Part shown: piece by piece, positions 22,713 through 26,297 of the stretch
Numbering within the stretch: the stretch's first letter is position 1
Layout: each line of letters opens with the position of its first letter
NCBI GenBank assembly: GCA_029821755.1
Contig: JALGSV010000031.1
Coordinates: forward strand, 1-41,087
Direction: 5' to 3'
Source: Candidatus Zipacnadum vermilionense
Lineage (GTDB): Bacteria; Armatimonadota; Zipacnadia; Zipacnadales; Zipacnadaceae
DNA: 41,087 nt
The notes under the pieces: generated by a model
What the model was told of the DNA's origin: nothing
Database searches by the model: none
Seen by the model: only the letters and a program-made list of their open reading frames with translations
Position numbers and translations under genes: made by a program

Positions 22713-23462
22713 TCATTTGTCCTGTGCGACAGCATCGTCGCTCAATTCGTGCAGACACAGCGCGACCGCCACCGTCGCCGCCGTCTCGGCGCGCAGCACG
22801 CGCGCACCCAGGCTGGCTGGCTGCAACCCGGCCGCCACCGCCTGCGCCACCTCGGCGGGGGTGAAATCCCCCTCCGGCCCGATAAACAGCCCCAGGGCCC
22901 CCGTCGTGCCCAGTTCCGCTAGAACGCGCTTAAGCGGCGGCGGATTCTCTGTCGCCAGAAGCGCGAAGATGATACCAGGAACCTCCTGGGCTCGCCAATG
23001 CGCCAGCCCCTCCGGCAACTCCAGGGGCGCCGACACCGGTGGAATCGTCGGCGACTGGCACTGCCTCCCCGCGGCCTCCGCAATTCCGTTCCAGCGCTCC
23101 ACCTGCGCCGCCAGGCGATCCTCCCGCGGCCGGACGACTGACCGCTCCGTCACCAGTGGGACGATCTCCGCAGCACCCACTTCCGTCGCCTTCTCCAGCA
23201 TCCACTGAAAGCTCTTGTGCTTGGTCAGTGCCGCGTATAGCACCACCCGCACCGGCGGCTGCGGCCTCCCCACGCGCACCGCCACTACCCGCGCCGCCTC
23301 GCCCTCCAGCCGCGCCTCCGCCTCCTGCCCGTCCGGCAGCACCGCCACAAACGCCTCCGGTTCGCGCAGTCGCAGCACCTCCCGCAGGTAATGCCGCTGC
23401 TCCGCCGCCAGCGGGATGACGTCACCTGCGCCGTAGGACCGCCCGACGAAGATGCGGGTCAC
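22713..23462 (-). CDS. rsmE: 16S rRNA (uridine1498-N3)-methyltransferase RsmE
   Basis: This 249-residue SPOUT methyltransferase methylates U1498 of 16S rRNA. Family markers are the N-terminal RIFVG and YLREVLRLR segment, ALTKHKSFQWMLEKATEVG, and the trefoil-knot SAM site GLFIGPEGDFTPAEV, followed by LGARVLRAETAATVAV. The start is GTG at 23462, overlapping the last codon of prmA (GTGA), with GGAGGGAG 6 nt upstream. An in-frame longer reading to 23498 is not supported. Length matches the family. PrmA-RsmE is a common bacterial pair, and DnaJ commonly precedes them in Gram-positive genomes. Confidence 0.95.
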   Translation of the reverse strand: MTRIFVGRSYGAGDVIPLAAEQRHYLREVLRLREPEAFVAVLPDGQEAEARLEGEAARVVAVRVGRPQPPVRVVLYAALTKHKSFQWMLEKATEVGAAEIVPLVTERSVVRPREDRLAAQVERWNGIAEAAGRQCQSPTIPPVSAPLELPEGLAHWRAQEVPGIIFALLATENPPPLKRVLAELGTTGALGLFIGPEGDFTPAEVAQAVAAGLQPASLGARVLRAETAATVAVALCLHELSDDAVAQDK

Positions 23463-24325
23463 GAGAGCTCCCTCCGCCGCGCCACTACCGCCACCCACTC
23501 CCCCCGGTGCGCCTCCTCTGCCACCTCCAGCCCCGCCGCCCGCAGCGCCTCCACTAGCGCCGGCTGGCTCGTCTCGCTCGTGCCCGACAGTATCGCTCGG
23601 CCACGTGGCTGCAGGTATCCAGCCAGCCGCGGAATCAGCCGCAGCAGAAAGGGGGTATGCACGTTAGCCACGATCACGTCGTACTTGCCCCCCAGGTTCT
23701 CCAGGGCGTTCCCGGTCTCCACGGTGCACCGCTGCGCCACCTCGTTGCGCCGGAAGTTGCGCTGCGCCACCTCCACCGCCACCGGGTCCACCTCCCACCC
23801 CCGTACCGGGCCACTTCCCAGCCGCGCCGCCGCAATGGACAGAATCCCTGACCCAGCGCCGATGTCGGCCACGGTATCTCCGGGATTCAGGTGCGTTTCC
23901 AGCACCTCCAGGCACATCTGCGTGGTCTCGTGCGTCCCCGTCCCGAAGGCCATCTCGGGGTCCATCTGGATAATCAGGTCGTCTGGCCGCGCGGCCCCCG
24001 GCTGGTCCTCCGGCGGCCACGCCTCCCAGGTAGGCTTGATCACAAGCCGCCGCCCCACGCGTAGGGGGTGGTAGTGCGCCTTCCAGGAGGTAGCCCAGTC
24101 TTCCTCGGAGATCGTCTCCGTCTCGACCCGCAGTTCGGTGTCCAGGTCGTTCTCGCGGGCGAACTCCTCCCAGCGCCGCGTTACCGCGGCCACCACCTGG
24201 TCCGCCTGGTGTGGGTCGGCGCAATAGGCGGTCACCACCGCCGCGGATCCCGGTTCCGCGGAGACGCCACGACCGGTTAGAGCGATCAGCCAATCGCTGA
24301 CCAACTCTTCCCATTCAGCAGGCAT
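23459..24325 (-). CDS. prmA: Ribosomal protein L11 methyltransferase PrmA
   Basis: This 288-residue class I SAM-dependent enzyme methylates ribosomal protein L11. The motif I region VADIGAGSGILSIAAARL and the catalytic N-V-H-T-P-F stretch (usual family form N-x-x-x-x-P) are present. The N-terminal substrate-recognition half (MPAEWEELVSDWLIALTGRG) and the EEDWATSWKAHYHPLRVG segment match the family. ATG at 24325 gives the usual family length and start; a reading from 24481 adds Arg/Ser-rich noise overlapping dnaJ. No Shine-Dalgarno site is visible upstream. It lies 52 bp after dnaJ and overlaps rsmE by 4 bp. Confidence 0.95.
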   Translation of the reverse strand: MPAEWEELVSDWLIALTGRGVSAEPGSAAVVTAYCADPHQADQVVAAVTRRWEEFARENDLDTELRVETETISEEDWATSWKAHYHPLRVGRRLVIKPTWEAWPPEDQPGAARPDDLIIQMDPEMAFGTGTHETTQMCLEVLETHLNPGDTVADIGAGSGILSIAAARLGSGPVRGWEVDPVAVEVAQRNFRRNEVAQRCTVETGNALENLGGKYDVIVANVHTPFLLRLIPRLAGYLQPRGRAILSGTSETSQPALVEALRAAGLEVAEEAHRGEWVAVVARRRELS

Positions 24326-24377
24326 AGTGAAACGGAGAGCAGACCAGGAGGTGGGGGAGAGGGTGTCGGTGATGGGG

Positions 24378-25484
24378 TCAGCCTCCCAGGGAGTCGCGCA
24401 GGCGGTCGAAGATGCCCTTGTGAGGCGACGGCGGCTCGAACCCGTTCTCGCGCGCCAGTTCCTCCAAGAGCTCTCGCTCACGCCCCTCGAGATTTCGGGG
24501 TATGACTACCTGCAGATTGACCACTAGCTGACCGCGCCGGCCGCCGTTCTTATCCGGCAGTCCCTCGCCGGCCACCGCTAGCCGGTCCCCGGGCTGCGAC
24601 CCCGTCGGCAGCGGCACCTGTGTCTCGCCGGTCAGCGTGGGGATGGTCAGCGTATCCCCCAGCGCCGCCTGCAGATAGCTGATCTGGTGAGTCATCTCGA
24701 GATCTCGTCCGCGCCGCGTGAAAATCGGGTGCTTCTTGACGGCCAACCGCAGCAGCAGGTCTCCGGGCAGCCCACCCGGGACCTCCTCGCCCGCCCCCCG
24801 CATGACCAACTGATCCCCATGTCCCACTCCTGGCGGCACCTGCGCCGTCACTGTCTCGCGCCGCTGGGCGACGCCCTGCCCCTGGCACGCCGGGCATAGT
24901 TGCTCGGGGATCTGCCCTGCTCCGGCGCAGTGCGGGCAGGTATTGACCGTAGTCATTACGCCCAGGAAAGTGTTCACGGTCTGGCGTATCTGGCCCTGCC
25001 CGCCGCAGGCGCTACACCGGTTCAACGAAGTTCCCGGCTCAATGCCCTCGCCCTGGCAGTGCTCACACAGGGCGGGGCGGGTGTAGGTGACCTCGCGCTC
25101 GGCGCCGGCCAGCACGTCGTTGAGGTCAAGGGTGAGGGTTACCTCGAGGCTGCGGCCCTGGCGGGGACCGGCGCGACCAGGGCTGCCCACGGGGTTGCCG
25201 CCAAAGGCGGACTCGAAGATCTGCCACAGATCGGGCATGCCGCCAGCAAAGAGGTCGCCGCTTGCCCCACCCAGATCATACCGGCGTCGCTTGTCCTCGT
25301 CGGAGAGCACGGCGTAGGCCTCGGAGATGCGCTTGAAGGTCTCCTCCGCCTCTCGGTCCCCGTTGTTGACATCGGGATGGTACTTGCGCGCCAGTTGCCG
25401 GTACGCGCGTTTTATCTCTTCCGTGCTGGCCTCACGGCCTACACTCAGTATTTCGTAGTAGTCGGTAACCACTGCGCGAATCAC
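24378..25484 (-). CDS. dnaJ: Chaperone protein DnaJ
   Basis: This 368-residue type I J-protein stimulates DnaK ATPase and binds unfolded clients. The J domain has the HPD motif at residues 36-38 (KYHPDVN). A short Gly/Phe region follows (about 72-110). Four zinc-finger repeats have C-x2-C-x-G-x-G ([32 protein letters not shown]). The C-terminal client domain is complete. It starts with GTG at 25484 (a second GTG is at residue 5); the ribosome site is weak. It lies 48 bp after rpoZ. grpE and dnaK, often upstream, are absent, so this may be one of several dnaJ copies. The tail ends in [16 protein letters not shown]. Confidence 0.96.
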
Positions 25485-25532: not shown

Positions 25533-26057
25533 CTAGTCCTCCCCTTTGTCCTCCTCGACTTCCTCGACTTCCTTTTCTTCCTCTGCCTCGCCTATGTGCT
25601 CGTCCTTTACCTCCTCGGCCTCCTCCTCCAGTTCCTCCGGTAGGATCTGGTCGGGCTCGTCGCCGAAGCCGAACTCGATCTCCGCCTCTCCCTCGTCGTA
25701 CTCCTCGCTGAAGGCACTCTCCAGTGCCTCTCCCTCCTCGAGCTCCTCGTCCTGGAGATCTTCTTCTTCGTCGACGATGGCGTCCGTAGCGATCTGGTCC
25801 TGGAGACTGCCGCGCCGCACTAGGTAGTCCTGTACTACCGGCTCGGGCTCGCGCATCATTTCCTCGGTGGCGTCCTGCAGCAGGACCTTCCCCGCCGCGA
25901 TCTCCTCCAGAGCGATAGTCAAGGGATTGCGGGCAGTCGTCTCCACCAGCGGGGGGGCGCCGTCCTTGATCTGGCCGGCGCGTGTGGCCGCGGCCACCAC
26001 CAGATCAAAGCGGCTTCCGAAGTGGCGGGATAGTTCATCAATTGAAATGGGGTTCAC
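25533..26057 (-). CDS. rpoZ: RNA polymerase omega subunit with long acidic C-terminal tail
   Basis: This 174-residue protein has an omega core in residues about 1-60: PISIDELSRHFGSRFDLVVAA, then VETTARNPLTIALEEIAAGKV. That region contacts the beta-prime C-terminus and helps core assembly. The family normally ends at about 70-110 residues. Here residues 61-95 link to a tail (96-174) in which 43 of 79 residues are Asp or Glu and only four are Lys or His. GTG at 26057 is chosen: GGAGG lies 8 nt upstream, and the longer frame to 26198 would run into the promoter. A strong promoter lies about 100 bp further up. It is the first gene of the minus-strand block that continues into dnaJ, prmA and rsmE. 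Confidence 0.88.
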   Translation of the reverse strand: MNPISIDELSRHFGSRFDLVVAAATRAGQIKDGAPPLVETTARNPLTIALEEIAAGKVLLQDATEEMMREPEPVVQDYLVRRGSLQDQIATDAIVDEEEDLQDEELEEGEALESAFSEEYDEGEAEIEFGFGDEPDQILPEELEEEAEEVKDEHIGEAEEEKEVEEVEEDKGED

Positions 26058-26297
26058 GTGGGCGACCTCCGTAGTGTAGAGACAGAACAAAAGGGGCTCT
26101 AAAGTGGACAACACAAAACGCCCGGCCCTCGCAGCCCGGCTCATAGCTTGCTTGCGATTGTGAGCATTCAGTATACCGACCGCAAGGCCGAGTGTCAATC
26201 ATGGGTCCGGTTAGCAGGTACACGCCACCGGCTGGGGAATCATACGCGCCATGGGAGTATCTGCCGAATCGTCCGTCCCGTGCAGGAGATGATTGCC
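26058..26297. promoter_or_regulatory. Divergent control region between rpoZ and the GH2 glycosidase
   Basis: This 240-bp region holds the rpoZ promoter (minus strand) and, overlapping its -10, a weaker plus-strand candidate (TTGCTT 26148-26153, 18 bp, TATACC 26172-26177) for the GH2 gene. The two could compete. The plus-strand leader carries GGAG 9 nt before the GH2 ATG at 26298. Direct repeats of gcccggc occur at about 26119 and 26134. Confidence 0.45.
26170..26198 (-). promoter_or_regulatory. Near-consensus sigma70 promoter of the rpoZ block
   Basis: On the minus strand, TTGACA (26198-26193), a 17-bp spacer and TATACT (26175-26170, five of six) form the best promoter of the window. Predicted leader is about 105 nt to the GTG of rpoZ. 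Confidence 0.7.

Follow-up and report, generated by a model that had tools for sequence, protein, structure and literature searches.

The rpoZ locus and the omega subunit that it encodes

The window, by which we mean the whole 41,087-nucleotide stretch of Candidatus Zipacnadum vermilionense DNA that was analysed, carries rpoZ, the gene for the omega subunit of RNA polymerase, together with the neighbouring genes and sequence features given in Table 1.

Table 1. Position of rpoZ, the segments of its product and the adjacent genes in the window
Feature	Position	Strand	Details
rsmE-type 16S rRNA methyltransferase	22713..23498	minus	PF04452, E 3.8e-40
prmA, ribosomal protein L11 methyltransferase	23459..24481	minus	PF06325, E 5.7e-71
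dnaJ, directly downstream of rpoZ	24378..25484	minus	PF00226/PF01556/PF00684
rpoZ, RNA polymerase omega	25533..26057	minus	174 aa; GTG start; TAG stop 25533..25535
Omega acidic tail, residues 96-174	25536..25772	minus	43/79 Asp/Glu; pLDDT 56-66
Omega linker, residues 59-95	25773..25883	minus	two weakly predicted helices (AlphaFold2)
Omega YLVRRG motif, residues 78-83	25809..25826	minus	pattern conserved in family
Omega core, residues 1-58	25884..26057	minus	Pfam (residues 9-58), AlphaFold2 and PDB alignment
Shine-Dalgarno sequence GGAGG	26066..26070	minus	8 nt before rpoZ GTG; from sequence

The rpoZ product matches two profiles, Pfam PF01192 (RNA_pol_Rpb6) over residues 9-58 (58.3 bits, cut-off 26; E 7.5e-16) and TIGR00690, the NCBI model for omega (47.3 bits, cut-off 23.6). 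Only omega/Rpb6-type profiles match the protein, and the HARE-HTH/delta domain was not found in it. The core is predicted by AlphaFold2 with a pLDDT of 92-97 over residues 21-60, and its best alignment in the PDB is with the omega chain 8i23_E (Z 9.4 over 62 residues); RPB6 and archaeal RpoK also align, the PDB matches listed being omega, RPB6 and RpoK chains. A profile search of the 4.39-Mb genome revealed the rpoZ of the window to be its only omega gene. The sequence-only reading had described an omega core followed by a 79-residue tail with 43 Asp or Glu residues, and its coordinates proved exact and its counts were confirmed.

Between the core and the acidic tail lies a linker with helices predicted at residues 73-82 and 85-94 (pLDDT about 60-76), which is about 70% identical in amino acid sequence within the genus. 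The last 79 residues include only 3 Lys or Arg, and the 116 residues that follow the core contain 51 Asp or Glu and 6 Lys or Arg, giving a net charge of -45. The low confidence with which AlphaFold2 predicts the tail is as expected of disorder. Among 479 predicted proteins, each of 100 amino acids or more, from 650 kb of the same genome, omega ranked first for Asp and Glu in the last 79 residues (43 versus 24 in the next highest protein, with a mean of 9.6 and a 99th percentile of 17), indicating that acidic C termini are not a general habit of this genome. We conclude that the protein of the window is a genuine omega subunit, the C terminus of which has become a disordered polyanion.

We also considered whether the tail could be the product of a frameshift or of a sequencing error in a GA-rich region, which the sequence-only reading had named as a case that would undo it. 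Two independent assemblies from the same genus (G001 and G002) encode omegas of 184 and 181 amino acids, with acidic tails of 123 and 126 residues and the same architecture as in the window. When the acidic parts from the genus were aligned in pairs, differences fell at 51-60% of third codon positions and at 18-30% of first and second positions, and aligned residues shared the Asp/Glu state in 77-82% of cases at an amino acid identity of 47-55%; synonymous distances in the genus are near saturation, and hence no precise dN/dS is given. This coding pattern of substitution and the shared architecture, together with the occurrence of acidic tails throughout the phylum described below, exclude such an artefact.

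Acidic omega tails across Armatimonadota and other phyla

The organism of the window is a member of Armatimonadota (Zipacnadia/WS1 group). We gathered omegas from 57 of 61 genomes and from 80 named contigs. The tails of 103 distinct complete Armatimonadota omegas, counted from the end of the core, have a median length of 76 residues (range 6-207) and a median net charge of -26, whereas the median length in three comparison phyla is 8-21 residues. A net tail charge of -15 or stronger was found in 72/103 Armatimonadota omegas versus 4/100 in the comparison phyla (Fisher p 7e-25, a value that is not tree-corrected and treats relatives within a phylum as independent sequences). The latter four came from two phyla, that to which an Aminicenantes genome belongs (Acidobacteriota by inference; 2/40) and that of a genome titled Actinomycetota (2/30); the third, Firmicutes, represented by the phylum-mates of a Tissierellia genome, gave none (0/30). 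At the level of families, 17 of 24 in Armatimonadota include a tail of -10 or stronger, and seven (f7, f11, f14, f18, f19, f23, and f24) do not. Within the family of the window, tails measure 114-124 residues in its own genus, as delimited by HMM, compared with 28-45 residues in sister genera. From these sequence comparisons, tail acidity is a widespread Armatimonadota trait and the great length seen here is a genus-level enlargement. Of the conservation in length and charge that the earlier reading had proposed to check, therefore, the charge holds, acidity being kept across the phylum, but the length, which varies about 30-fold, does not.

Acidic tails of comparable length also occur outside the phylum. 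Four of ten Aminicenantes-type omegas (L122, L131, L135, and L139) have tails of 93-106 residues with 53-66 Asp or Glu (55-62%); these omegas were found through the likeness of their cores to the query, and the count is thus no estimate of how frequent acidic tails are in that group. Judged by sequence, they apparently represent an independent second gain. Other kinds of extension were noted as well. An omega from the phylum of G064 (L225) has a 148-residue, lysine-rich tail of mixed charge with 30 Asp or Glu and 37 Lys or Arg, and a 220-amino-acid omega from Armatimonadota (L063) has a tail in which repeated KPKRTRKKKAE-type basic blocks alternate with acidic ones.

The segment between the core and the acidic part contains a local motif. 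In 12/14 members of the window's family (f1), the pattern Y-L-x-(R/Q)-R-G follows the core at a distance of 16-18 residues; in shuffled tails, it appeared in a mean of 0.07 and a maximum of 2 family members over 2000 trials. In family f6, Y(Y/F)AGR(D/E) lies at that same distance from the core, and other families have hydrophobic-acidic motifs of their own (EEDLLGGDLFGI in f5 and DDEDLDLFADMDL in f9), but the YLxRRG pattern itself is present in only 16/104 Armatimonadota tails. The likely role of the YLxRRG segment is to position the tail, whether it docks on the polymerase or binds back to the acidic part.

The setting of rpoZ also differs from that in other bacteria. The gmk-rpoZ order has been reported for 18,302 of 23,517 bacterial genomes (PMC9973325). 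By an approximate, motif-based search, gmk was detected upstream of rpoZ at 0/76 Armatimonadota loci with enough sequence, compared with 66/97 comparison loci, and a DnaJ motif directly after rpoZ at 65/100 Armatimonadota loci, compared with 0/100. Armatimonadota rpoZ has thus left its usual neighbourhood for a place upstream of dnaJ, which can be used as a marker. The tail does not depend on this linkage, as the median net tail charge is -26 both with and without an adjacent dnaJ.

Delta, HelD and sigma region 1.1

The sequence-only reading had proposed that the tail gives this lineage the function of the Firmicute delta subunit in the absence of a separate delta gene. The absence was borne out: no match over the cut-off of the delta model TIGR04567 was found in any of 61 Armatimonadota genomes, the window's genome included, under conditions in which the model recovered the B. 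subtilis and L. lactis delta subunits. Those matches below the cut-off that were translated turned out to be larger proteins of other kinds. Nor is there a hidden delta gene in the single HARE-HTH match of the genome, which is a 345-amino-acid protein of another kind without an NCBIfam match. This protein is encoded at L031:1408-2445, and a longer, similar protein is present in a relative (L055).

The proposed substitution, in contrast, is not supported. TIGR04567 matched over the cut-off in 12 of 31 Firmicutes genomes, and the 19 without delta have short omegas and no strongly acidic omega tail (0/30 Firmicutes omegas at -15, with one, L188, reaching -13). This indicates that lack of delta is not enough on its own to bring about an omega tail and that replacement of delta by such a tail is no general rule. 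The roughly 30-fold variation in tail length and the seven Armatimonadota families without a strong tail likewise argue against substitution, as does the presence of sigma region 1.1, which was detected in 52 of the 61 genomes, that of the window (G000) among them; the tail is thus no stand-in for a missing region 1.1 either. In one genome, rpoZ lies divergently beside an open reading frame with a sigma 1.1 domain (G049:C20:73258-74042). HelD, which works together with delta in B. subtilis, was not found over the cut-off in 31 genomes, where only weak helicase-domain matches below the cut-off were obtained.

Possible roles of the tail and comparison with known systems

As the leading explanation, we tentatively favor a tethered polyanion that competes with nucleic acids on RNA polymerase, by analogy with delta. 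The C-terminal region of B. subtilis delta (residues 91-173) is disordered, has a net charge of -47, and enters the main channel in competition with nucleic acids; it is restrained by a positively charged region on its N-terminal side, and without HelD, delta displaces about 80% of bubble DNA (PMC7749165). The delta-like acidity claimed for the omega tail is confirmed in that its net charge is close to this value, and a Firmicute delta in our collection (L290) has 56 Asp or Glu and 7 Lys or Arg in 100 amino acids. Further, the two arginines of YLVRRG lie N-terminal to the acidic part, a position comparable to that of the positive region in delta. This delta-scale charge, with a basic segment between core and acid, is what places the tethered polyanion first, and the retention of acidity while tail sequence and length change, the low-confidence prediction of the tail, and the lack of delta over the cut-off in 61 genomes also favor it. 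The likeness is one of analogy, not homology.

If this is so, omega would dock normally on beta-prime and thereby supply one tethered polyanion per polymerase, which would compete with RNA or DNA for basic surfaces of the enzyme in the main channel or the regions of nucleic acid exit. Such competition would weaken non-productive nucleic acid binding and aid recycling, much as the C-terminal region of delta does but from another anchor. Delta is anchored at the rim of the main channel and omega elsewhere on beta-prime. By a rough coil estimate, 116 residues span about 81 Å end to end and 40 residues 43 Å, and the 28-45-residue tails of the sister genera may thus fall short of the main channel, which speaks against a polyanion role. 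Also against it are the lack of HelD, the partner of delta, over the cut-off, the presence of region 1.1, another occupant of the channel, and, as judged from the sequences sampled, the delta-less Firmicutes without acidic omega tails. The fuller proposition, that omega, in a phylum without delta, acquired a permanently attached polyanionic tail regulating nucleic acid occupancy of the polymerase, convergent with delta and the RPB6 tail and gained again in some Aminicenantes, is a possibility that we put forward with some doubt.

A second explanation, serious but unlikely, is that the tail is a protein-docking arm in which short motifs would recruit a factor of transcription, repair, or translation, with electrostatic steering from the acidic stretches. 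It is supported by the eukaryotic omega homologue RPB6, which uses an acidic tail at its N terminus to recruit TFIIH by way of p62 (PMC8754651), by an omega-partner interaction known in Rhodobacter, that with GafA (PMC9638019), and by the YLxRRG motif of f1, its YFAGRE-like counterpart at the same offset in f6, and the separate motifs of f5 and f9. These motifs, however, differ among families, the YLxRRG pattern being confined to 16/104 tails, the tail consists mostly of low-complexity acidic sequence, and the partner is hypothetical. Somewhat less probable still, though also a serious rival, is an aid to assembly or solubility, i.e. an entropic bristle acting during polymerase assembly, perhaps with the neighbouring DnaJ. 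This is suggested by the role of omega as a chaperone in beta-prime folding (PMC7700224) and by the adjacent dnaJ (65/100 Armatimonadota versus 0/100 comparison omegas), and acidic low-complexity tails tolerate length drift of the kind seen here; but tail charge is independent of dnaJ adjacency, and a bristle would not need local motif conservation. Finally, a near-neutral low-complexity expansion that serves no dedicated function, to which the range of lengths across the phylum and between sister genera, the low identity of the acidic part within the genus, and the seven families without a strong tail would point, is improbable given the charge kept in 17/24 families, the agreement in Asp/Glu state, the roughly twofold excess of third-position changes over first- and second-position changes, and the lack of a comparable protein among those sampled in the genome.

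In the literature searched, from which subscription journals and preprints mostly fell outside, we found no description of a strongly acidic omega tail throughout a phylum, and the long acidic tail common in Armatimonadota is real, conserved, and apparently undescribed. The usual view of omega is that of a small assembly factor; an acidic arm throughout a phylum means that core polymerases differ between phyla, and a comparable acidic feature controls recycling in Firmicutes or factor recruitment in eukaryotes. The arm lends itself to in vitro comparison of one enzyme with and without its tail.

Overall, the protein of the window is a variant of omega and not a delta. It shares the core sequence, predicted fold, and single copy of a typical omega, which ends soon after the core, but continues for 116 residues. 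Like the Firmicute delta, it is a small polymerase subunit whose C terminus is a disordered acidic tail, similar in length and charge; unlike delta, it is anchored through omega, a core subunit, and the two are not homologous. RPB6 has a homologous core and a flexible acidic tail, but that tail is N-terminal, whereas the omega core here starts within the first nine residues and the tail is C-terminal; it is about three times longer than the human RPB6 tail (roughly 32-42 residues) and evidently independent of it. Most bacterial omegas lack an RPB6-type acidic tail, according to the RPB6 authors (PMC8754651). Omegas of Chlamydiae and Rickettsiales also have disordered C-terminal extensions, but these comprise 15-63 residues, occur in obligate intracellular bacteria, and are described without mention of acidity, and Chlamydiae, unlike Armatimonadota, keep the gmk-rpoZ order (PMC9973325). 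Lastly, phage SPO1 Gp44 (PMC8208478) is reported to aim DNA mimicry at RNA polymerase, in which it resembles the tail, but it is a separate phage inhibitor, whereas the Armatimonadota polyanion is the tail of a polymerase subunit.
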